A stretch of DNA of 64,000 nucleotides from Gemmobacter fulvus (GTDB taxonomy: Bacteria; Pseudomonadota; Alphaproteobacteria; Rhodobacterales; Rhodobacteraceae). The translations under genes were made by a program, and so were the position numbers. The notes beneath the pieces were generated by a model that was given only the letters and a program-made list of their open reading frames with translations, ran no database searches and was not told where the DNA came from. This document shows, in pieces, positions 28,510 through 40,392 of the stretch (positions within the stretch are counted from its first letter, which is position 1; each line of letters starts with the position of its first letter). The stretch lies in NCBI RefSeq assembly GCF_018798885.1, contig NZ_CP076361.1, forward strand, positions 558,001 through 622,000, given 5' to 3'.

Positions 28510-28780
28510 GGTCTCCCTCCCCCGAACACCCGGACCCTGACCGGGTCTGTGGGAATCCTAGGCGCAATCGCGACGCGTGGCACCCCCTCTCGGGTCGCAG
28601 ATCGGTGAATTCTGCGTGCTTGCCAGACGGCGAGAGCTTAAAATTGCGGCATACCCGCGATAACCGCCACCGATACAGGCAAAACCGCCAAAGATGACGG
28701 CCCGTTTCGCGCGCGCGCTTCCCAAACGCGCAGCCATGGCAGGATTGGACAAAGCCCCTTTGCTGCGGATCGGGATCACC

Positions 28781-29365
28781 ATGCCCTCCACCCTGTCGAT
28801 CATCGTCGTGGAAAAGGACCGCGAGCGCGCCTTGCGGATCGTCGATGCGCTGAAGGATGCGGGCGATCTGCACATCACGGTGATTGCCGACGAGGCCGGG
28901 CTGGCGCGGCGCATTGCCGAACACAAGCCCGATGTGGTGCTGATCGACATTGCCAGCCCCTCCCGCGATGTGCTGGAGGAGTTGACGCTGGCCTCCGGCC
29001 CGTTGGAACGTCCGGTGGCGATGTTCGTTGATCGGTCCGACACCGGCCTGACCCGCGCCGCAATCGAGGCCGGGGTCAGCGCCTATGTGGTGGACGGGCT
29101 GCGCCCCGACCGGATCAAGCCGATCCTGGATGCCGCCATCGCGCGCTTTCACATGTTCCAGCGGATGCGCACCGAACTGGCCACCACCAAGGCGGCACTG
29201 GAAGAACGCAAGGTGATCGACCGGGCCAAGGGCATCGTGATGCGGGCCAAGGGAATCGGCGAGGATGAGGCTTATGCCCTGATCCGCCGCACCGCGATGG
29301 ATCAGGGCAAACGCATCGTCGATGTGGCGCAGGCGCTGGTCACGGCGGCGGAGCTGCTGAAATGA
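28781..29365 (+). CDS. nasT: Nitrate-responsive antiterminator NasT (REC-ANTAR)
   Basis: The 194-residue protein has an N-terminal receiver-like domain with Asp56 (VVLIDIASP) and a C-terminal ANTAR domain from about residue 135 (RKVIDRAKGIVMRAKGIG, EDEAYALIRRTAMDQGKRI, VDVAQALV). ANTAR domains bind tandem-hairpin RNAs and prevent termination. In characterised systems, NasS holds NasT when nitrate is absent and releases it when nitrate binds. I take MPSTLSIIVVEKDRE at 28781 as the start, giving the usual length. It overlaps nasS by four bases (ATGA). Its probable RNA target is present upstream of nrtA. Confidence 0.93.
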   Translation: MPSTLSIIVVEKDRERALRIVDALKDAGDLHITVIADEAGLARRIAEHKPDVVLIDIASPSRDVLEELTLASGPLERPVAMFVDRSDTGLTRAAIEAGVSAYVVDGLRPDRIKPILDAAIARFHMFQRMRTELATTKAALEERKVIDRAKGIVMRAKGIGEDEAYALIRRTAMDQGKRIVDVAQALVTAAELLK

Positions 29366-30525
29366 CGCGTGCGCTGCCCTTGGGGTTCATTCCGCTGGTC
29401 GATGCCGCACCGCTGATCATAGCCGCCGAACTGGGCTTTGCCGAGGAAGAAGGGCTGGCCGTCAGCCTGCACCGCGCCGCCAGCTGGTCGATGCTGCGCG
29501 ACATGCTCGATTTCGGGCAGGTGGATGCGGCGCAGATGCTGTCGGTGGTGCCGGTGGCCCGTGCGCTGGGGCTTGGCGGCGGCACGGTGCCGCTGGAAGC
29601 GCCGATGGTGCTGTCGCTCAACGGGCAGGTGTTGGGGCTTTCGGCGCGGCTGGCGGCGGCGATGCGGGCGACCGGCCTGCCCTTCCGCTTTGGCGAGGCG
29701 CGGGCGGCTGGGCTGGCGCTGGCCGCCACGCCGATCCGCATTGGCGTGCCCTTCCCGTTTTCGATGCAGGCAGCTCTGGTGCAGTATTGGCTGGCCCATG
29801 CCGCCCCCGCCGCACAGGTCACCATCCGCACCGTGCCGCCCCCCCGCATGGCCGAGGCGCTGGCCGCAGGCGAGGTGGATGCGTTCTGCGTGGGCGAGCC
29901 CTGGGGCAGCCATGCGGTCGAGGTGGCGGGGGCGGAACTGCTGCTGCCCGGTGCCGCGATCTGGAGCCAGGCACCGGAAAAGGTGCTGGCGACCCGCGCC
30001 GGCTGGTGCGAGGCCGAACCTGATCTGGCGGGGCGTTTGCTGCGGGCGCTGTGGCGTGCCGCGCGTTGGCTGGGCGATGCCGCCAACCGCGTCACCGCCG
30101 CCGAACTGCTGGCCCGCCCCGCCCATCTGGGCATCGCGGCAGAGCTGATCGACCGGGCGCTGACCGGCCGTCTGCTCATCACCCGCGCCGGGGCCGAAGA
30201 AGCCGTGCCGCAGTTTCTGGAGTTTCACGCGGGGGCGGCCAATTTCCCATGGCGCAGTCAGGCGGCCTGGATCGGGGCCGATCTTGCCGCCCGCCACGGG
30301 CTTGCGCCGGATGCGGCCATCGCCGCCGCCCGCGCCACCTTTCGCAGCGATCTGTTCCGCCTGCACCTAGGCCCCGCCGGGGCGGTGCTGCCCCGCGCCT
30401 CGGACAAGGCAGAGGGGATGCTGACCGCCGCCGAAGCCGTGCCCGCCGTGAAGGGCACGCTGATTCTGGCGCGCAACCGTTTCTTTGACGGCCAGATTTT
30501 CGACCCCGCCGCCCCGCAACGCTGA
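29362..30525 (+). CDS. nasS: Nitrate sensor NasS (NrtA-like, cytoplasmic)
   Basis: The 387-residue protein resembles the nitrate-binding periplasmic proteins NrtA/CmpA (LGFIPLVDAAPLIIAAELGFAEEEGL, VDAAQMLSVVPVARALG, VDAFCVGEPWGSHAV) but starts MTRALPLGFIPL with no signal peptide. This is the difference between a sensor and a transporter component. With NasT it forms the two-protein nitrate/nitrite switch of the assimilation genes. The first four bases overlap the nasT stop. A 244-base regulatory leader separates it from nrtA. Confidence 0.9.
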   Translation: MTRALPLGFIPLVDAAPLIIAAELGFAEEEGLAVSLHRAASWSMLRDMLDFGQVDAAQMLSVVPVARALGLGGGTVPLEAPMVLSLNGQVLGLSARLAAAMRATGLPFRFGEARAAGLALAATPIRIGVPFPFSMQAALVQYWLAHAAPAAQVTIRTVPPPRMAEALAAGEVDAFCVGEPWGSHAVEVAGAELLLPGAAIWSQAPEKVLATRAGWCEAEPDLAGRLLRALWRAARWLGDAANRVTAAELLARPAHLGIAAELIDRALTGRLLITRAGAEEAVPQFLEFHAGAANFPWRSQAAWIGADLAARHGLAPDAAIAAARATFRSDLFRLHLGPAGAVLPRASDKAEGMLTAAEAVPAVKGTLILARNRFFDGQIFDPAAPQR

Positions 30526-30630
30526 AAAAACAGGCAGCTTTCGCCGCATCGCGGCATTTGTCCCTTTCACCATGCCGCAGCTGCAAACCGACGCTTGACC
30601 CAACCTCGACCGGACCACATCCTGATCTCA

Positions 30631-30671
30631 AGACGGAGCAATGGCGTTCCGTTTCCCCCCGAAAGCTCGGG
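30631..30671 (+). promoter_or_regulatory. ANTAR-target tandem hairpins in the nrtA leader
   Basis: The first hairpin spans 30631-30654: nine pairs (two G-U), with hexaloop AATGGC at 30640-30645. The second spans 30658-30671: CCCG/CGGG with hexaloop AAAGCT at 30662-30667. Both loops have A at position 1 and G at position 4, the established ANTAR RNA recognition rule, and the pair sits directly before an intrinsic terminator. NasT binding here would permit read-through into nrtA. The pairing was read by eye and is the only evidence. Confidence 0.8.
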
Positions 30672-30680
30672 ACACAGGCA

Positions 30681-30735
30681 AGGCCGCCTGACACGTCGCA
30701 GGGATTTTTCCTGCGGTGCTGTCTGCGGCCTTTTT
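30681..30735 (+). terminator. Intrinsic terminator in the nrtA leader (attenuator)
   Basis: An outer stem AGGCCGC/GCGGCCT (30681-30687 and 30725-30731), a middle interrupted stem (GACAC with GTG-C-TGTC), and an inner stem CGCAGG/CCTGCG enclose a GATTTTT loop. The hairpin ends in a T5 run at 30731-30735. It lies before the nrtA coding region, so it would stop transcription unless antiterminated. Confidence 0.85.
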
Positions 30736-30769
30736 CGCATTTCCCACCCCGTTCACAGGATACCCCGCC

Positions 30770-32131
30770 ATGACCCTCACCGCCCGGATTCTGCTGGCCA
30801 CCACGCTGCTCGCCTCGCCCGCTGTCGCCGTGACCCCCGATATTGAAAAAGACGAACTGACCCTTGGTTTCATCAAGCTGACAGATATGGCCCCGCTGGC
30901 GATTGCCAAGGAAAAGGGCTTTTTCGAAGAGGAAGGGCTGTATGTCACCCTCGAGGCGCAATCGAACTGGAAAGTGCTGCTCGACCGGGTGATCGCGGGC
31001 GAGTTGGATGGCGCGCATATGCTGGCAGGCCAGCCGATTGCCGCCACCATCGGCTATGGCACCAAGGGCGCGGTGGTCACGCCGTTTTCGATGGATCTGA
31101 ACGGCAATGCCATCACCGTGTCGAACGCGGTCTGGCAGGCGATGAAACCGGCCCTGCCGCTGGGCGCCGATGGCAAGCCCGCCCACCCGATCAGCGCCGC
31201 CGCACTCAAGCCGGTGATCGAGGCCTATGCCAATGACGGCAAGCCCTTCAATCTGGGCATGGTGTTTCCGGTCTCCACCCATAATTACGAACTGCGCTTC
31301 TGGCTGGCGGCAGGCGGCATCCATCCGGGGCTGTATTCAGCGGATGATGTCTCGGGCCAGATCGGTGGCGATGTGCTGATTTCGGTGACACCGCCGCCGC
31401 AGATGCCCGCCACGCTGGAGGCCGGCACGATTGATGGCTATTCCGTGGGTGAGCCATGGAACCAGGCCGCTGTCGCCAAGGGCATCGGCGTGCCGGTGAT
31501 CACCGACACGGACATCTGGAAGAACAACCCCGAAAAGGTGTTCGGCCTGACGGCAGAGTTTGTCGATGCCAACCCCAATACCACGCTGGCGCTGACCAAG
31601 GCGCTGATCCGCGCCGCGATCTGGCTGGACGAGGGCGACAATGCCAACCGCGCCGAGGCGGTCGAGATCCTCAGCCGTGCGGAATATGTCGGGGCGGATG
31701 CGGCGGTGATCGGCAATTCGATGACCGGCACCTTTGAATACGAGGCAGGCGACACCCGCCCCGCCCCCGATTTCAACGTGTTCTTCCGCTACAACGCGAC
31801 CTTCCCCTATTACTCGGACGCGGTGTGGTATCTGACCCAGATGCGCCGCTGGGGCCAGATCACCGAGGCAAAGCCCGATGGCTGGTATGATGAGACCGCG
31901 AAATCGGTCTACAAACCCGATCTCTACAAGGCCGCCGCCGAAGCCCTGATTGCCGAGGGCAAGGCCAGCGCCGATCAGTTCGACTTTGATGCCGATGGCT
32001 ATCGCGCGCCCAGCGCCGAATTCATCGACGGCGTCAGCTACGACGGCACCCGCCCCAACGCCTATATCGACAGCCTGAGCATCGGGCTGAAAGGCGCGCA
32101 AACCGTTGCCGGCGGCGAAATCGTCAACTGA
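30770..32131 (+). CDS. nrtA: Nitrate ABC transporter, substrate-binding protein
   Basis: The 453-residue protein binds nitrate (or nitrite) in the periplasm. It has a Sec signal peptide ([21 protein letters not shown]), then the NrtA/CmpA family sequence [46 protein letters not shown] and [17 protein letters not shown]. The C-terminal extension with [21 protein letters not shown] is typical of NrtA. AGGAT lies before the ATG at 30770. It is the first gene of nrtABC-nirBD-nasA-cobA. Confidence 0.94.
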
Positions 32132-32173: not shown

Positions 32174-33265
32174 ATGACCTCCATCGACCCCGCCGCCCTG
32201 CCGGAAGATTCCGCCCAAAGCCGCGAACTGCGCCTTGCCAATCTGTCGCGCCTGATCACGCGCTGTGATCCGTGGTTCCGCGCGCTTGGCCTTGGTTTCC
32301 TCAGCCCGGTGTGGCGCATGTTGATCGGCGACAACCCGCGCGGCCAGATCGCCGATCTGTGGCGGCTGGCCGGGGTTCCGGTGCTGGCGATTGCGGGTTT
32401 CCTCGCACTCTGGGCCACGCTGGCGCCGATGGTGCAAACCTCGCTTGGGGCCATTCCCGGCCCGGCGCAAGTCTGGGAGCAGGCGCAGGTGCTGCATGCC
32501 GATTCCCGCGCCGCTGGGGTGAAAGAGGCCGAATTCTACGCCCGTCAGGCCGACAAGAACGCCGAACTGGTGGCGGCGGGCAAGGCGGATGAGGTGAAGG
32601 ACCGCGCCTATACCGGCAAGCCTACCTATTACGCACAAATTGCCACCTCGATCAAAACCGTGTTCTTCGGCTTTCTGATCGCCACGGCCATCGCGGTGCC
32701 GCTGGGCATCGTGTCGGGCCTTTCGCCGCTGGCCAATGCCGCCATCAACCCGGTGGTGCAGATCTTCAAGCCGGTCTCGCCGCTGGCCTGGCTGCCGATC
32801 GTCACAATGGTCGTCTCGGCCCTCTATGCGGGCGGCGATGGCGGCATGTCGAAAAGCTTTCTGATCTCGGCAGTGACGGTGACGCTGTGTTCGCTGTGGC
32901 CGACGCTGATCAACACCGCGCTGGGCGTCGCCTCGATCGACAAGGATCTGGTCAATGTGGGCCGTGTGCTGAAGCTTGGCCCGTGGAAAAAGATCACCCG
33001 GCTGGTACTGCCTTCAGCGCTGCCGCTGATCTTCACCGGGTTGCGCCTGTCGCTGGGCGTGGGCTGGATGGTGCTGATCGCCGCCGAGATGCTGGCGCAG
33101 AACCCCGGTCTGGGCAAGTTCGTCTGGGATGAATTCCAGAACGGATCCGAGCAAAGCCTCGCGCGCATCATGGTGGCGGTGCTGACCATCGGCATCATCG
33201 GCTTCCTGCTCGACCGGGTGATGTTCGCGCTGCAATCCGCCTTCACCTTTTCAGCAAACCGGTGA
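32174..33265 (+). CDS. nrtB: Nitrate ABC transporter, permease
   Basis: The 363-residue inner-membrane permease has a cytoplasmic N-terminal segment, a first membrane helix near residues 67-88, a charged insertion of about 60 residues (AEFYARQADKNAELVAAGKAD), and then the BPD_transp_1 core with five further helices. The ABC-contact EAA loop is VGRVLKLGPWKKITRLVLPSALP. This charged insertion is common in proteobacterial NrtB. It ends two bases inside the following ABC gene region (stop at 33263-33265), and an alternative GTG start for that gene overlaps it. Confidence 0.92.
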   Translation: MTSIDPAALPEDSAQSRELRLANLSRLITRCDPWFRALGLGFLSPVWRMLIGDNPRGQIADLWRLAGVPVLAIAGFLALWATLAPMVQTSLGAIPGPAQVWEQAQVLHADSRAAGVKEAEFYARQADKNAELVAAGKADEVKDRAYTGKPTYYAQIATSIKTVFFGFLIATAIAVPLGIVSGLSPLANAAINPVVQIFKPVSPLAWLPIVTMVVSALYAGGDGGMSKSFLISAVTVTLCSLWPTLINTALGVASIDKDLVNVGRVLKLGPWKKITRLVLPSALPLIFTGLRLSLGVGWMVLIAAEMLAQNPGLGKFVWDEFQNGSEQSLARIMVAVLTIGIIGFLLDRVMFALQSAFTFSANR

Positions 33266-33270
33266 GCGCC

Positions 33271-34917
33271 ATGGCAATCCTTGAACTCGATATGGTTTCC
33301 AAAGGCTATGGCGATACGCCGGTGCTGAAAAACCTGAGCCTTGCGGTGGAGGAAGGCGAATTTCTGGCGATCCTCGGCTTTTCCGGCACCGGCAAGACCA
33401 CGCTGATGAACCTGATGGCCGGGCTGGTGCTGCCCGACCGGGGCGAGCTGCGCTTTCGCGGCAAGCCGGTCACCGGGCCGGGGCCGGAACGCGGGCTGGT
33501 GTTCCAGTCCTATGCGCTGATGCCCTGGCTGACGGTGGCGGGCAATATCGGTCTGGCGGTCGATGCGGTGCATGGCCACAAGCCAAAGGCCGAACGCGCG
33601 GCGCTGGTGACGCGCTACATCCAGATGGTCGGGCTGGCCCATGCCGCCGACCGTCGCCCGGCAGAGCTTTCAGGCGGGATGCGGCAGCGGGTGGCGGTGG
33701 CGCGCGCGCTGGCGATGCAGCCCGATGTGCTGCTGATGGACGAGCCGCTGTCGGCGCTGGACGCGCTGACCCGCGCCAATGTTGCCGCCGAAATCGAGGC
33801 GATCTGGGCGGCGGACAAGCGCACCGTCGTGTTGATCACCAATGATGTGGACGAGGCGCTGGTTCTGGCCGACCGCATCCTGTGCCTGAACCCCGATGGC
33901 AGCCTTGGCGCGGCCTTTCCGGTCGATCTGCCCCGCCCGCGCAACCGTAGCGTGATGACCGAGGACGCACATTTCAAGGTGCTGCGCGCCGAGGTGACGG
34001 CCTATCTGATGGATGTGGGCATTGCCGCCAAACTGCCCGAAACCCGCAGCCTGCCCAATGTCACCCCGCGCCATGCCATGCCCAAGGCCTATGCGCAGGC
34101 GGCCAAAAGCTTCACCGATGACCGCTATCTGCACTATTCGCAGCTGCACAAGATCTATGCCACGCCGAAAGGCCCGCTGACCGTGGTGGAGGATTTCAGC
34201 CTCACCCTGAAAAAGGGCGAGTTCGTCAGCCTGATCGGCCATTCCGGCTGCGGCAAATCCACCGTGCTGACGATGACGGCGGGGCTGAACAGCATTTCCA
34301 AGGGCGCGATCAAGCTGGACGGGGTGCATGTGGAAGGCGCAGACCCCGAACGTGCCGTGGTGTTCCAGTCGCCCAACCTGTTCCCCTGGCTGACCGCCAA
34401 GGAGAATGTGGCGATCGGGGTGGACAAGGTCTACCCCAAGGCCAGCCAGGCCGAACGGCAAGAGGTGGTGGAATATTATCTGGAGCGGGTGGGCCTCGCC
34501 GATGCGATGGACCGCTCTGCCGCAGATATGTCCAACGGCATGCGCCAGCGCGTCGGCATCGCCCGCGCCTTCGCGCTGTCGCCCAAGCTGCTGCTGCTGG
34601 ATGAACCCTTCGGCATGCTGGACAGCCTGACCCGCTGGGAATTGCAGGAAGTGCTGATGGAAGTGTGGTCGCGCACCAAGGTGACCGCCGTCTGCGTCAC
34701 GCATGATGTGGATGAGGCGATCCTGCTGGCCGACCGCGTGGTGATGATGACCAACGGCCCGCGCGCCACCATCGGCAAGATCACCGAGGTGAACCTGCCG
34801 CGCCCGCGCAGCCGCAAAGACCTGCAAAACCATGCGGACTATTACCATTACCGGGCCGAAGTGCTGGAATTCCTTGCGGAATATGAGCATGGCGCCAAAA
34901 AGAAGGATGCTGCGTGA
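33271..34917 (+). CDS. Nitrate ABC transporter, fused double ATP-binding protein (NrtC/NrtD-like)
   Basis: The 548-residue protein joins two ATPase domains. The first has Walker A GFSGTGKTT, signature LSGGMRQR and Walker B VLLMDEP; the second, from about residue 285, has GHSGCGKST, signature MSNGMRQR and LLLLDEP. In cyanobacteria these are separate NrtC and NrtD, with NrtC bearing a regulatory solute-binding domain; no such domain is present here. The start ATG at 33271 follows GGTGAG, while a GTG at 33262 would overlap nrtB (GTGA). The stop overlaps the nirB start by one base. Confidence 0.9.
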   Translation: MAILELDMVSKGYGDTPVLKNLSLAVEEGEFLAILGFSGTGKTTLMNLMAGLVLPDRGELRFRGKPVTGPGPERGLVFQSYALMPWLTVAGNIGLAVDAVHGHKPKAERAALVTRYIQMVGLAHAADRRPAELSGGMRQRVAVARALAMQPDVLLMDEPLSALDALTRANVAAEIEAIWAADKRTVVLITNDVDEALVLADRILCLNPDGSLGAAFPVDLPRPRNRSVMTEDAHFKVLRAEVTAYLMDVGIAAKLPETRSLPNVTPRHAMPKAYAQAAKSFTDDRYLHYSQLHKIYATPKGPLTVVEDFSLTLKKGEFVSLIGHSGCGKSTVLTMTAGLNSISKGAIKLDGVHVEGADPERAVVFQSPNLFPWLTAKENVAIGVDKVYPKASQAERQEVVEYYLERVGLADAMDRSAADMSNGMRQRVGIARAFALSPKLLLLDEPFGMLDSLTRWELQEVLMEVWSRTKVTAVCVTHDVDEAILLADRVVMMTNGPRATIGKITEVNLPRPRSRKDLQNHADYYHYRAEVLEFLAEYEHGAKKKDAA

Positions 34918-37379
34918 TGATCCCTGGCACAGCCGAACGCAAAACCGAGAAACTTGTCGTCATCGGGGCCGGCATGGCCTCAGGCCGGGTTCTGGAACAT
35001 CTGATGACCGAGGCGCCGGGCGCCTTTGACGTGACCCTGTTCAATGCCGAACCGCGCGGCAATTACAACCGCATCATGCTGTCGCCCGTGCTGTCGGGCG
35101 AAAAGACCTATGCCGAGATCGTGACCCATGATGACGACTGGTATGCGCAGCAGGGCATCGACTGCCGCTTTGGCGAAAGCATCGTCAAGATCGACCGCGC
35201 CAACAAGGTGGTCTATTCCAACGCGGGTGGCGTGCCCTATGACAAGCTGGTGATCGCCACCGGCTCGGCCCCCTTCATCATCCCGGTGCCGGGCAAGGAT
35301 CTGCCCGGCGTTGTCAGCTACCGCGACCTTGACGATACGAACACGATGATCGCCGCCGCCCGACCGGGTGCGCAGGCGGTTGTCATTGGCGGCGGGCTTC
35401 TGGGGCTGGAAGCCGCTGCCGGGCTGGCGCTCCGGGGCATGGAGGTCACGGTGATCCATCTGATGGGTCATCTGATGGAGCGCCAGCTGGATCCTTCGGC
35501 GGGTTACCTTTTGCAAAAGGCGCTGGAAGCACGCGGCATCCGCATCCATTGCAAGGGCGCGACCAAGGCCATTCTGGGCACCGACCGGGTGGAGGCGGTG
35601 GCGCTGGAGGATGGCACCGTCTACGGCGCCGATCTTGTGGTGATGGCGGTGGGCATCCGCCCGGAAACCCGCATCGCCACCGATGCGCATCTGGAGGTGG
35701 CGCGCGGCATCACCGTCGATGATGCGCTGCGCACCTCTGACCCGGCGATCTGGGCGGTGGGCGAATGTGTGGAACATGACAAACAGCTGTTTGGTCTGGT
35801 CGCGCCCTTGTACGATCAGGCCAGGGTGGTGGCGGCCTCGCTTCTGGGCCACGAGGCCGCCTTCCGCCCGGTGCAGACGGCCACCAAGCTGAAAGTCACC
35901 GGCTGCGATCTGTTCAGCGCCGGGGATTTCGCCGAAGGGCCGGGCCGCGAGGATATCGTGTTCCGCGATCCGGGGCGCGGCGTCTACAAACGGCTGGTGA
36001 TCGAGGGCGACAGGCTCATCGGCGCGGTGATGTATGGCGATACCGCCGATGGCGGCTGGTTCTTCGGGCTGATCAAGGATGGCACCGATATTTCCGCCAT
36101 GCGCGACACGCTGATCTTTGGTCCGGCCTTTCAGGGGGGCCCCTCCGCGGACCCTTTGGCAGCCGTTGCAGCCTTGCCGCCTGAGGCGGAAATCTGTGGC
36201 TGCAACGGCGTCTGCAAAGGCAAGATCGTCTCGGCCATCGAAGGCGGGGCCACCACATTGGACGCGGTGCGCGCCCAGACCAAGGCCAGTTCATCCTGTG
36301 GCACCTGCACCGGACTGGTGGAGCAGGTTCTGGCGGTGACGATGGGCGATGCCTTCGTGCTGCCCACGGCGCAGCCGATGTGCAAATGCACCCGGCACAC
36401 CCATGAGGATGTGCGGCGGCTGATCAAGGCGCAGGGGCTGAAGTCGATCCCGGCGGTGATGCAGGAACTGGGCTGGACCTCGGTCGGCGGCTGCGCCTCC
36501 TGCCGCCCGGCGCTGAACTATTACCTGCTGTCGGACTGGCCGCTGGACTATACCGATGACCGGCAGGCGCGCTTCGTGAACGAACGCAACCACGCCAATA
36601 TCCAGAAGGACGGCACCTATTCGGTGGTGCCGCGCATGTGGGGCGGTGTCACCACCCCGGACGAGCTGCGCGCGATTGCCGATGCGGCAGACCGCTACAA
36701 TGTGCCGATGGTCAAGGTGACGGGCGGCCAGAGGATCGACCTGCTGGGCGTCCGCAAAGAGGATCTGCCTGCGATCTGGGCCGATTTCAACGCGGCGGGC
36801 ATGGTGTCGGGCCATGCCTATTCCAAAGGGCTGCGCACGGTCAAAACCTGTGTCGGATCCGAATTCTGCCGCTTTGGCACGCAGGACAGCACCGGGCTTG
36901 GCATCCGGCTGGAAAAGCACCTCTGGGGATCGTGGACGCCCGCCAAGGTCAAGCTGGGGGTTTCGGGCTGCCCGCGCAACTGCGCCGAGGCCACCTGCAA
37001 GGACATCGGCATCGTCTGTGTCGACAGCGGTTATCAGATCAGTGTGGCCGGGGCGGCGGGCATGGATGTGAAGGAAACCGAGTTGCTCTGCACCGTCGCC
37101 ACCGAAGACGAGGTGATGGAGATCGTGTCGGCCTTTGTGCAGCTTTACCGCGAAAACAGCCGCTACCTGCACCGCATCTACAAATTCGTGGCCAAGACCG
37201 GCCTTGACTGGTGCAAGGCGCAGGTCGTCGCGGATCTGGACAACCGCCGCGCCCTCGCCGCCCGGTTCGAGCTGAGCCAATCCGTCTACCGCACCGACCC
37301 CTGGGCCGAACATGCCGCGCCGCGCGAACGCGCCAAGTGGCAGCCTTTGGCCGATCTTTCGCTGGAGGCCGCAGAATGA
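34917..37379 (+). CDS. nirB: Assimilatory nitrite reductase [NAD(P)H], large subunit
   Basis: The 820-residue flavo-sirohaem enzyme reduces nitrite to ammonium in the cytoplasm. It has an FAD motif (VVIGAGMASGR at 14-24), an NAD motif (VVIGGGLLGLEAAAG), a BFD-like 2Fe-2S domain (CGCNGVCKGKI and CGTC) followed by a second Cys-rich repeat, a ferredoxin-like half-domain, and the 4Fe-4S/sirohaem ligands Cys645, Cys651, Cys685 and Cys689. ATG at 34917 shares one base with the upstream stop; AAGGA lies eight bases before it. It overlaps nirD by ATGA. Confidence 0.96.
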   Translation: MIPGTAERKTEKLVVIGAGMASGRVLEHLMTEAPGAFDVTLFNAEPRGNYNRIMLSPVLSGEKTYAEIVTHDDDWYAQQGIDCRFGESIVKIDRANKVVYSNAGGVPYDKLVIATGSAPFIIPVPGKDLPGVVSYRDLDDTNTMIAAARPGAQAVVIGGGLLGLEAAAGLALRGMEVTVIHLMGHLMERQLDPSAGYLLQKALEARGIRIHCKGATKAILGTDRVEAVALEDGTVYGADLVVMAVGIRPETRIATDAHLEVARGITVDDALRTSDPAIWAVGECVEHDKQLFGLVAPLYDQARVVAASLLGHEAAFRPVQTATKLKVTGCDLFSAGDFAEGPGREDIVFRDPGRGVYKRLVIEGDRLIGAVMYGDTADGGWFFGLIKDGTDISAMRDTLIFGPAFQGGPSADPLAAVAALPPEAEICGCNGVCKGKIVSAIEGGATTLDAVRAQTKASSSCGTCTGLVEQVLAVTMGDAFVLPTAQPMCKCTRHTHEDVRRLIKAQGLKSIPAVMQELGWTSVGGCASCRPALNYYLLSDWPLDYTDDRQARFVNERNHANIQKDGTYSVVPRMWGGVTTPDELRAIADAADRYNVPMVKVTGGQRIDLLGVRKEDLPAIWADFNAAGMVSGHAYSKGLRTVKTCVGSEFCRFGTQDSTGLGIRLEKHLWGSWTPAKVKLGVSGCPRNCAEATCKDIGIVCVDSGYQISVAGAAGMDVKETELLCTVATEDEVMEIVSAFVQLYRENSRYLHRIYKFVAKTGLDWCKAQVVADLDNRRALAARFELSQSVYRTDPWAEHAAPRERAKWQPLADLSLEAAE

Positions 37380-37711
37380 CCCGTTATCTGGATATCGGCC
37401 CGCTGGACGACATTCCGCGCGAAGGTGCGCGGGTGGTAAAAACCGCGATGGGCTGCGTTGCCGTCTTTCGCACCGCGACCGATGCGGTGTTCGCGCTGGA
37501 TGACCGCTGCCCGCACAAGGGCGGCCCGCTGTCCGAAGGCATCGTGCATGGCACCTCGGTCACCTGCCCGCTGCATGCCTGGGTGTTCGACATGGGCACC
37601 GGCGCCGCACAGGGCGCGGATGAGGGTCAGGTGGCCACCTATGACGTGCGGGTGGAGGCCGGGCGTGTCCTGCTCGACACCAGCCGCATTCTGCGGGAGC
37701 GCGCGGCATGA
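37376..37711 (+). CDS. nirD: Nitrite reductase [NAD(P)H], small subunit with intact Rieske site
   Basis: The 111-residue protein has a Rieske fold and complete 2Fe-2S ligands: Cys45 and His47 (CPHKGG) and Cys64 and His67 (CPLHAW). The enterobacterial NirD has lost these ligands, so this version can probably carry electrons. It overlaps nirB at its start and nasA at its end, both by ATGA, which suggests fixed stoichiometry with these enzymes. Confidence 0.95.
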   Translation: MTRYLDIGPLDDIPREGARVVKTAMGCVAVFRTATDAVFALDDRCPHKGGPLSEGIVHGTSVTCPLHAWVFDMGTGAAQGADEGQVATYDVRVEAGRVLLDTSRILRERAA

Positions 37712-40392
37712 CAGATCCGCGCGATGCCGGGCAGACCCTGACCGACGGGCAGACCGGGCGACAGGCGGAAGCCATCCGCACCACCTGCCCCTATTGCGGT
37801 GTGGGCTGCGGCGTGCTGGCCCGGCAGACCGCGCAGGGCTGGGAGATCGCGGGCGACCCCGATCACCCGGCCAATATGGGACGGCTCTGCTCCAAAGGTG
37901 CCGCGCTGGGCGAAACGCTGGGGCTTGAGGGGCGTCTGCTCGCGCCGCAGATCCATGGGCAAGAGGCCAATTGGGATACGGCGCTGGATCTGGTAGCGGC
38001 CAAGTTCCGCGCAGCGATTGACACCCACGGGCCGGATGCGGTGGCCTTCTATGTGTCCGGTCAATTGCTGACCGAGGATTATTATGTCGCCAACAAGCTG
38101 ATGAAGGGCTTCATCGGCAGCGCCAATATCGACACCAATTCGCGGCTCTGCATGGCATCCTCGGTCGCGGGCCATCGCCGCGCCTTTGGCACCGATACCG
38201 TGCCGGGGCTCTATGAGGATCTGGAACAGGCGGATCTGGTGGTGCTGGTCGGCTCCAATCTGGCGTGGTGCCATCCGGTGCTGTTCCAGCGCCTTGTCGC
38301 CGCCAAGGCGGCACGGCCCGCGCTGCGGGTGGTGGTGGTCGATCCGCGCCGCACCGCCAGCTGCGATCTGGCCGATCTGCATCTGGCGCTGGCCCCCGGC
38401 AGCGATGCCGCCCTGTTCAACGCGTTGCTGGTGCATCTGGCCGACAGCGGCAAGGTGGATGCCGACTTTATAAACAACATCAATGGGTTTGACGCAGCTC
38501 TTGAAGCGGCGCGTCAAGAAGATTCCGCCCGCTGCAACCTGCCGCAGGCCGATCTGGAGGCCTTCCTTGCCCTTTGGGCGGGCACGCAGAAGGTGGTGAC
38601 GGTCTATAGTCAGGGCATCAACCAATCCGCCTCGGGCAGCGACAAGGTGAATGCCATTCTCAACTGCCATCTGGCGACCGGGCGCATTGGTCGGCCCGGC
38701 ATGGGGCCGTTTTCGGTGACGGGGCAACCCAATGCGATGGGCGGGCGTGAAGTGGGCGGGCTTGCCAATATGCTCGCCTGCCATCTGGAGCTGGAGGTCC
38801 CCGCCCACCGCGCCGCCGTGCAGACCTTCTGGGCCGCCCCCGCCATGCCCGAAACACCCGGCCTCAAGGCGGTGGACATGTTCCGCGCGGTCGAGGCCGG
38901 AACAATCAAGGCGCTGTGGATCATCTGCACCAACCCCGCCGTGTCGATGCCTGATGCCGATCGGGTGGCGCGGGCGATTGCCTCATGCGATTTTGTGGTG
39001 GTCAGCGACATGATGGCTTCGACCGATACCACCCGGCTGGCGCATGTGCTGCTGCCCGCAACTGGCTGGGGAGAAAAGGATGGCACCGTCACCAATTCCG
39101 AACGCCGGATCAGCCGCCAGCGCGCGCTGCGCCCCGCCGCAGGGCAGGCAAGGCATGATTGGCAGATCCTGGCCGAGGTTGGCCGCCGCATGGGCTGGGC
39201 CGAGGCTTTCGCCTGGGACTATCCGGCCCAGATCTTTGCCGAACATGCAGCACTCTCGGGCATCGCCGGCGCCCTGGGCAGCGATTTCGACATTTCCGAC
39301 CATGCGGGCATCAGCAGCGCCGGGTTCGACGCGCTGGCACCGTTTCTCTGGCCCGCCAATCCGCGCCAGCGCGGCGGGCGTTTCTTTGCCGAGGGGCGGT
39401 TTCACACCGCCGATGGCCGGGCGCGGATGCTGCCGATCACCGCGCGCACGCCGCAGCCCACCGATGCGGCACATCCGTTCCGCCTGAACACCGGCCGGGT
39501 GCGCGACCATTGGCATACGATGACGCGGACCGGCCTGTCGGCCCGGCTCAGCCAGCATCTGGCCGAACCCTATCTGGAGATCCATCCCCACGATGCAGCG
39601 GCACTGGGCCTTGCCGCCGCCAGCCTTGCCGAAGTGACCAGCCCGCAGGGCCGGGCCGTGCTGCGCGTGCTGATCAGCGACAAGGTGGCCCCCGGCCATC
39701 CCTTCGCCCCGATCCACTGGAGCGGCGAAACCGCCCCCACGGGCCGGGTTGATGCGCTGGTGCCCGCGATCACCGATCCGGTGTCGGGCCAGCCCGACAG
39801 CAAGGCCGCCGTGGTGGCGATTGCACCCTTTCCGGCGGCCTGGTTCGGCTATGCGGTGACCGCGCAGGATCTACGCCCCGATTGCGCCTATTGGGCGCGG
39901 GCCACGCTGGGCCATGGCGGGTGGCGCTACGAACTGGCGGGCACCCATTGCCCCGACGATTGGGGCCGCGAGGCCCGCCGCCTGCTGTCGGTGCCCGACA
40001 GTGCGGCGATGCAGGCCTATAGCGACCCGGCGCGCGGCCAGCATCGCATGGTCTTTACCGAGACAGGCCGCCTGATCGCCGCGCTGTTCATCGACCGCCA
40101 GCCGGTTGCCGTGGCGCGCGACCACCTTGCCAGCCTGATCGGGGCCGAACCCGAGCGTGATGCGCTGGCAGGCCGCCCTGCCGCAGATCGCCCCGATCCG
40201 GGGGCCACGGTCTGCGCCTGTTTCAACGTGGGGGTCAATACGCTGGCCCGCGCCATTGCCGAACAGGGGCTGCTCAGCGTCGAGGCCATCGGTGACGCAC
40301 TGAAAGCTGGCACGAATTGCGGCTCCTGCCGCCCCGAAATCAAGGCGCTGATCGCCCGCCACAGCCCCGCAATGAAGGAGGCCGCCGAATGA
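37708..40392 (+). CDS. nasA: Assimilatory nitrate reductase, molybdopterin catalytic subunit
   Basis: The 894-residue enzyme reduces nitrate to nitrite in the cytoplasm. The N-terminal 4Fe-4S ligands are Cys27, Cys30, Cys34 and Cys61 (TTCPYCGVGC, LCSKG). The bis-MGD core includes DTNSRLCMASSV, where the Cys near residue 149 is the expected molybdenum ligand, and GQPNAMGGREVGG. The last 60 residues form a BFD-like 2Fe-2S domain (CACFNVGV and CGSC), as in NasA of Klebsiella type. No separate reductase subunit (NasB/NasC-like) is encoded beside it. It overlaps nirD and cobA by ATGA. Confidence 0.95.
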   Translation: MTDPRDAGQTLTDGQTGRQAEAIRTTCPYCGVGCGVLARQTAQGWEIAGDPDHPANMGRLCSKGAALGETLGLEGRLLAPQIHGQEANWDTALDLVAAKFRAAIDTHGPDAVAFYVSGQLLTEDYYVANKLMKGFIGSANIDTNSRLCMASSVAGHRRAFGTDTVPGLYEDLEQADLVVLVGSNLAWCHPVLFQRLVAAKAARPALRVVVVDPRRTASCDLADLHLALAPGSDAALFNALLVHLADSGKVDADFINNINGFDAALEAARQEDSARCNLPQADLEAFLALWAGTQKVVTVYSQGINQSASGSDKVNAILNCHLATGRIGRPGMGPFSVTGQPNAMGGREVGGLANMLACHLELEVPAHRAAVQTFWAAPAMPETPGLKAVDMFRAVEAGTIKALWIICTNPAVSMPDADRVARAIASCDFVVVSDMMASTDTTRLAHVLLPATGWGEKDGTVTNSERRISRQRALRPAAGQARHDWQILAEVGRRMGWAEAFAWDYPAQIFAEHAALSGIAGALGSDFDISDHAGISSAGFDALAPFLWPANPRQRGGRFFAEGRFHTADGRARMLPITARTPQPTDAAHPFRLNTGRVRDHWHTMTRTGLSARLSQHLAEPYLEIHPHDAAALGLAAASLAEVTSPQGRAVLRVLISDKVAPGHPFAPIHWSGETAPTGRVDALVPAITDPVSGQPDSKAAVVAIAPFPAAWFGYAVTAQDLRPDCAYWARATLGHGGWRYELAGTHCPDDWGREARRLLSVPDSAAMQAYSDPARGQHRMVFTETGRLIAALFIDRQPVAVARDHLASLIGAEPERDALAGRPAADRPDPGATVCACFNVGVNTLARAIAEQGLLSVEAIGDALKAGTNCGSCRPEIKALIARHSPAMKEAAE

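Follow-up and report, generated by a model that had tools for sequence, protein, structure and literature searches.

The 244-base gap between nasS and nrtA in Gemmobacter fulvus raises the question of how many RNA hairpins an ANTAR protein reads at a terminator. In the accepted model, two loops are bound by one ANTAR dimer, and their spacing is tightly limited. We analyzed the gap within a stretch of 64,000 nucleotides, hereafter the window. A first-pass annotation had described two hairpins and a terminator in the gap and had taken the two hairpins for a possible compact variant of the ANTAR motif. We observe three hairpins in a row, mutual exclusion between the last one and the terminator, conservation and covariation among relatives, and a gene context of nitrate assimilation. 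With good confidence, we interpret the locus in front of nrtA as a transcription attenuator under NasT control, built on three hairpins of the ANTAR type. The leader is a variant of the dual-hexaloop motif that has three hairpins, and not a compact form of it.

Gene context of the leader

On one side of the gap are the genes of an ANTAR regulator and its partner, and on the other, in the same orientation, a series of genes for nitrate and nitrite assimilation.

28781 to 29365, plus strand: nasT, with a receiver-like and an ANTAR domain (Pfam ANTAR E 2e-21); start codon chosen within the ORF 28694-29365
29362 to 30525, plus strand: nasS, the nitrate-binding partner of NasT, NMT1_2 family (Pfam E 1.4e-58)
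30770 to 32131, plus strand: nrtA (Pfam NMT1_2 E 3.5e-94), first gene of the controlled operon
32174 to 40392, plus strand: rest of the presumed operon (ORFs and Pfam), with a permease, a double-ATPase ABC protein, and nirB-like, Rieske, and molybdopterin nitrate reductase genes

The stop codon of nasT overlaps the start of nasS, and the Pfam matches agree with the earlier recognition of NasT and NasS upstream of the leader. The names nirB-like, nirD-like (Rieske), and nasA-like (nitrate reductase) for the operon genes are presumptive and were given by domain. The ORF at 33262-34917 has two ABC ATPase domains in one 551-aa chain (Pfam, two stretches) and is a fused nitrate-transporter ATPase. 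The ANTAR match of nasT is the single one in the genome (seven contigs), and the Response_reg match of the protein, at 25.9 bits, is below the Pfam cut-off of 30.2. In an alignment of NasT with EutV (6wsh/6ww6), the two proteins share a Tyr-Met pair at a distance of eight residues. We take this pair as the putative equivalent of the RNA-contacting Tyr164 and Met172 of EutV, assuming a numbering offset of 2 (available text of PMC8934654).

Three hairpins, the last one inside the terminator

The RNA elements of the gap are the following.

30631 to 30654, plus strand: hairpin A (P1), stem 30631-30639/30646-30654, loop AATGGC at 30640-30645, C-G closing pair
30658 to 30671, plus strand: hairpin B (middle), stem 30658-30661/30668-30671, loop AAAGCT at 30662-30667, G-C closing pair
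30675 to 30690, plus strand: hairpin C (P2, antiterminator), CAGGC-AAGGCC-GCCTG, loop AAGGCC at 30680-30685, C-G closing pair, -8.1 kcal/mol
30680 to 30735, plus strand: intrinsic terminator, stem 30680-30732, outer stem 30680-30687/30725-30732, U-run (T5) at 30731-30735

Hairpins A and B had been placed correctly in the first-pass annotation, and both are present in the minimum free energy fold, where ViennaRNA closes one additional A-U pair in B and a tetraloop remains. The terminator, already described as strong, folds at -33.8 kcal/mol (z -6.4). Hairpin C had been overlooked. All three hexaloops have A at place 1 and G at place 4 (A1/G4), and the C-G closing pair is found in A and C and not in B. 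The A-B and B-C linkers are 3 nt each, in line with the very short A-B linker (about 3-6 nt) noted earlier, and 20 nt containing a hairpin lie between A and C. The loop starts are 22 (A-B), 18 (B-C), and 40 nt (A-C) apart. We searched both strands of the window for triples of A1/G4 hexaloops, with hairpins of at least 4 bp and loop spacings of 14-30. Exactly one triple was found, A-B-C, with the terminator in its third member, compared with a mean of 0.05 triples, none with a terminator, in 40 dinucleotide shuffles of the 64 kb (one strand each).

The loop and the 3' arm of C are part of the 5' arm of the terminator, and the two structures are thus mutually exclusive. Since neither A nor B overlaps the terminator, neither can be an antiterminator in the published way. 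The role of antiterminator (P2) in the known ANTAR mechanism hence belongs to C (30675-30690) instead of B. The fold of 30628-30692 with the three hairpins has an energy of -27.5 kcal/mol, against -33.8 for the terminator. Once C forms, an inner terminator hairpin remains (fold of 30691-30740), 8 nt away from the U-run.

NasT binding, the response to nitrate, and read-through are proposed for G. fulvus by analogy with homologues. Without nitrate, NasS would hold NasT, the terminator at 30680-30735 would form, and transcription would end before nrtA. With nitrate (or nitrite), NasT would be freed and would bind the hexaloops in their order of synthesis (A, B, C). With C held, the terminator would lose its 5' arm (30680-30687) and the inner hairpin would be left 8 nt from the U-run, so that polymerase would read into nrtA and the genes behind it.

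Conservation of the leader in relatives

A search with NasS gave 410 loci, from which the best 80 were taken. nasT is upstream of nasS in all 80, and nrtA is downstream in 77. The other three (L061, L102, L106) have no nrtA above 45% identity and were left out, which gives a set of 78 leaders: 77 homologous nasS-nrtA leaders, one of them (L075) with a gap set by hand, and the window. The leader RNA was also found after nasS in L061 (5277-5347) and L106 (4510-4581), and weakly in L102 (R2 model); in L061 and L106, it may control another gene.

A hairpin of type C was found in 78/78 leaders, with one of type A upstream of it. The A loop has A1 in 77 and G4 in 78 of them. These counts are partly by construction, because only hairpins with A1, G4, and a C-G closing pair were accepted as C, and candidates for A with these features were preferred. 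We therefore also folded each core freely, starting 12 bases ahead of the A loop and finishing where C ends, with the core ends given by the search. Three hairpins formed in 75 of the 78 cores, four in two, and two in one. The first hairpin had an A1/G4 hexaloop in 64 cores and the last one in 73. A and C are the best-kept hairpins, and B is the variable middle member.

The first-pass annotation had suggested aligning homologous leaders to look for compensatory changes. In the MAFFT alignment (76 distinct rows), these are strong for A, with double changes at 6 of 7 pairs; they occur at 3 of 5 pairs in C and 3 of 4 in B, where 9 of the 11 such cells concern the outermost pair. The covariation score of the 76 distinct leaders is 0.387, compared with 0.179 when shuffled and at most 0.121 when slid. 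Without guidance, RNAalifold recovers A and C from the 78 leaders and misses B, partly owing to the misalignment of 7- and 8-base B loops. Base 3 of the P2 loop and its partner in the 3' arm of the terminator, in the register chosen for best fit, form A-U in 57 leaders, G-C in 14, C-G in 3, and G-U in one, with an unpaired C-U in the other 3 (n=78).

A covariance model was trained on 72 leaders, without the window, its two close relatives L032 and L033, and L040, L058, and L072. With a rough calibration, it scores the window site at 41.8 bits (E 4.4e-12), and the next best place in the window at 10.8 bits. Among 29 further loci of the family (L003-L031), 25 match at E below 1e-6; they are not all independent, as some probably come from genomes already represented among the named loci (e.g., L012/L053). 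Taken together, the gene context, the covariation, the covariance-model score, and the conservation of the leader support the NasT/ANTAR attenuator that had been proposed between nasTS and nrtA.

Two- and three-hairpin leaders across lineages

To place the leader among those of other bacteria, we fetched 97 nasT regions from other families, other classes, and distant members of the same family. They were searched for a pair of A1/G4 hexaloops with a terminator in the second one. In 48 of 98 loci, there was no match downstream of nasT, and these stayed unlabelled, except for L276, labelled by eye; the result is not a census. L276 (Rhodobacter sp. CZR27) has three A1/G4 hexaloops and a terminator, as judged by eye, and the gene after its leader is annotated as CmpA/NrtA family. 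Four loci (L203, L207, L231, L274) were labelled as three-hairpin on account of an additional A1/G4 hairpin upstream, at the normal pitch. In each of these four, A1/G4 is present in every loop, the middle ones having been found by a search requiring A1/G4. The spacings are 25/25 in L274, which is from another class of the phylum, and 28/19 in L231.

The labels were plotted on a NasT tree of 58 rows, from which L178, L187, L204, and L271 were left out and in which L185 was put among the three-hairpin leaders by eye. It holds 22 two-hairpin and 36 three-hairpin leaders, and the 36 include ten chosen from the 77 homologues. The label changes 6 times on the tree, at least 4 of them forced by supported branches, compared with about 18 times when shuffled. 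Thus, gain or loss of the extra hairpin has occurred several times. In the clade that includes the Rhodobacteraceae, 27/27 rows have three hairpins, and some other lineages have them too. Among the nine labelled rows outside the class, eight are two-hairpin and one, L274, is three-hairpin, with an unsure place in the tree on a long branch. As far as these sequences indicate, the three-hairpin layout reaches beyond Alphaproteobacteria.

The R1 covariance model was also run on whole genomes. Its second match in the genome of G. fulvus (L113, 27 bits, E 3.5e-5) resembles coding sequence when judged by eye, and neither A1 nor G4 is present in its first loop. We took it as chance, and the E-values of R1 are thus rough. 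Over 289 genomes of the class, 41 have a match at E 0.01 or better, and those in G000, G210, and G400 were accepted. The match in G553 adjoins nasT and belongs to a two-hairpin leader (L232). Nine further R1 loci (L122-L130), viewed by eye on one strand, showed no such leader.

The type of promoter may differ between groups of leaders.

30595 to 30623, plus strand: possible sigma70-type promoter, tentative (TTGACC, 17 nt, CATCCT)

A scan for consensus promoters gave nothing at this place. Among the 78 leaders, T is found at -45 and -44 from the P1 loop in 72% and 54%, and a search for sigma54 promoters gave one match. In the gaps downstream of nasS from other alphaproteobacterial families, TGGCAC is found in 12 of 19 (L178-L181, L183-L185, L187-L190, L193), and in 9 of the 12 it is followed six bases further by TGC, as in a sigma54 promoter (by eye). 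These sigma54-like sites are mostly upstream of the hexaloops, again by eye. The type of promoter seems to have changed between leader groups while the RNA persisted.

The role of the middle hairpin

The analysis of B required a procedure that avoids choosing the loops by eye. For this purpose, the A-C spacer was folded under a minimum loop size of 6 bases. The mean energy is -6.3 kcal/mol, compared with -3.6 when shuffled, with p below 0.05 in 19 of the 78 spacers and p 0.015 in the window. The signal of B by itself is weak across the 78 spacers. In its loops, G is at place 4 in 38 of the 39 seven-base loops, and at place 4 in 17 and place 3 in 13 of the 34 six-base loops. When the last B hairpin with a loop of 6 or 7 bases is taken (69 of the 78 leaders), G4 is found in 38/39 seven-base and 16/30 six-base loops, and the closing pair is C-G in 50, G-C in 12, A-T in 5, and T-A in 2. 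B is an A1/G4 hexaloop, so that all three loops are A1/G4, in 13 of the 78 leaders, window included, and its A1 is missing in most. The first-pass annotation expected the A and B loops to be conserved in homologous leaders. This holds for A and for half of B, where G4 is widely kept and A1 is not. In leaders of more distant origin in which A and C are widely spaced (25 places, of which some are spurious), G4 is found in 16/22 hexaloops and 3/4 seven-base loops, and the B stems are of quite different sequence.

The spacing of the loops was compared as well. In 65 leaders, the spacing is 22-31 (mode 28) for A-B and 18-26 (mode 21) for B-C, and the P1-P2 spacing of the 22 two-hairpin leaders is 18-26 (mode 23). 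Thus, A and C are separated by about twice the usual pitch, and B lies at about normal pitch from both. For EutV, antitermination was lost when the linker was made 20 nt longer (PMC8934654). The A-C spacing itself is 43-53 in most relatives and about 38-53 across the family, with one leader at 63.

These data are compatible with two main roles for B. The first, to which we give an even chance, is a third ANTAR contact that would link A and C, each step at normal hexaloop spacing. It gains from two leaders of the Rhodobacteraceae clade that had seemed to be two-hairpin exceptions and turned out to have three A1/G4 hexaloops. Two published results speak against it: in the available text of PMC3369931, EutV is intolerant of a 3-nt linker, the length of both window linkers, and in that of PMC7496416, the SELEX consensus of NasR has a C:G pair closing the loop, and B of the window is closed by G-C.

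The second role, nearly as likely as the third contact and in itself a serious if less favored possibility, is that of a structural bridge. A and C would be the ANTAR pair, and B, its loop uncontacted, would shorten the A-C linker for a NasT dimer. This linker ranges from 20 nt in the window to about 33 nt in the family when stems are taken as 5 bp. A bridge accounts for the uneven conservation of the loops (A1/G4 in 64 leaders for A, 73 for C, and 13 for B, out of 78) and for the loss of A1 from most B loops. It also fits L005 and L007, near relatives on the reverse strand (about 227-288), where the B hairpin persists and place 4 of its loop is A, not G; they are the best natural case for B as a mere bridge. 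Yet a pure spacer needs no G4, which is in 38 of the 39 seven-base loops and, in other lineages and on unrelated stems, in 16 of the 22 hexaloops of wide-spaced leaders. It does not need the A1/G4 loops of L203, L207, L231, and L274 either, with the caveat that the search required A1/G4 in the middle.

It is unlikely that the canonical dual hexaloop consists of B and C, at a spacing of 18, with A as an additional site upstream. The B-C spacing of 18-26 (mode 21) does fall in the two-hairpin range of 18-26, with L188 and L190 also at 18. However, A covaries most strongly and keeps A1/G4, and B does not; moreover, in Paracoccus denitrificans, loss of hairpin HI leads to no growth on nitrate (available part of PMC5424462), i.e., the hairpin is essential.

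The compact dual motif of A and B, with a terminator that merely comes after, had been suggested from the A1/G4 loops of both hairpins in the window. It is very improbable: neither hairpin overlaps the terminator, the overlooked C does so and was found in 78/78 leaders, and B is A1/G4 in only 13/78. Hardly more can be said for a plain, constitutive nasTS terminator that has hairpins beside it by accident. It would explain a strong terminator between nasS and nrtA and leaves unexplained the covarying A, the kept loops, the position of C inside the terminator, and the gene context. Attenuation by a leader peptide is the least credible of all and was rejected: the 16-codon ORF at 30641-30691 starts with an ATG in the A loop, has GGAG upstream, and ends in hairpin C, but is not conserved, as the ATG is in only 32/78 leaders and 12 peptides compared differ in length and sequence. 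Kissing between the loops of A (GGC) and C (GCC) was also discarded, as the A loop varies without a matching change in C (by eye).

Returning to B as a third contact, a broader version can be put forward tentatively, at somewhat less than even odds. In Rhodobacteraceae and in several further lineages, NasT would read a row of three hexaloops, evenly spaced at a pitch of about 18-31 nt. The active antiterminator would be a higher NasT oligomer instead of a simple dimer, and hairpins could be added or lost as whole units. The two best-kept loops, about 38-53 nt apart, either break the spacing limit or imply that ANTAR proteins bridge loops in series. The three-hairpin family makes the NasT:RNA stoichiometry directly testable.

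Comparison with known systems

At the gathering score, Rfam 15 has no match in the window leader or in 14 homologous loci, and only a tRNA is found in the window; three sub-threshold matches on the leader were taken as chance. The present work provides a usable covariance model for Rhodobacteraceae nitrate-operon leaders, which Rfam 15 does not match. In the passages of text covered by our literature search, we found no three-hairpin ANTAR target, and the targets described there are dual hairpins.

The closest experimental systems are Enterococcus faecalis eut and Klebsiella oxytoca nasF, compared here through the available parts of PMC3369931, PMC7496416, PMC8934654, and PMC3369936. The window shares with them the A1/G4 hexaloops, the C-G closure (here in A and C), an ANTAR protein, and a last hairpin that excludes an intrinsic terminator; the overlap of the second hairpin with the terminator is part of the ANTAR design in PMC3369931 and PMC3369936. 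It differs by its three hairpins, by A and C loops 40 nt apart with a hairpin between them, and by its 3-nt linkers. Linkers in E. faecalis are 5-12 nt, and 3 or 14 nt are disabling there (PMC3369931, same parts), whereas 2-25 nt was the criterion used for actinobacteria (PMC8164766); the window linkers fall outside the former range and within the latter. The ANTAR dual hexaloop is defined by exactly two hairpins, and the leader of the window, with three hairpins as in 75/78 cores, is hence a variant and no plain member of this class.

The NasS-NasT system of P. denitrificans (PMC3795266, PMC5424462) is a second close system. Both systems have the order nasT-nasS and a leader before nitrate genes. 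In P. denitrificans, NasT was shown experimentally to bind the nasA leader, NasS-NasT parts on nitrate, and NasT is an oligomer of about six (PMC3795266); for G. fulvus, such binding is predicted. The structural operon of P. denitrificans starts with nasA and that of the window with nrtA, and the P. denitrificans leader is discussed as hairpins HI and HII (PMC3795266, PMC5424462), against three hairpins in the window. In the nasS-nasA gap of a P. denitrificans genome in our set (L275, NZ_CP141053.1), we see by eye three G4 hexaloops, AACGGC, AATGAT, and GACGAT, with no U-run after the last one.

The two-hairpin NasT leaders of other Pseudomonadota (22 labelled, e.g., L188, L190, L237, L267) resemble the window in their position downstream of nasT, their A1/G4 loops in P1 and P2, and the location of P2 in the terminator. 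Unlike the window, they have no hairpin between P1 and P2, no further A1/G4 hairpin upstream, and a loop spacing of 18-26. The dual-hexaloop NasT/ANTAR switch is already known, and the window departs from it by the third hairpin in the row, which recurs in relatives.
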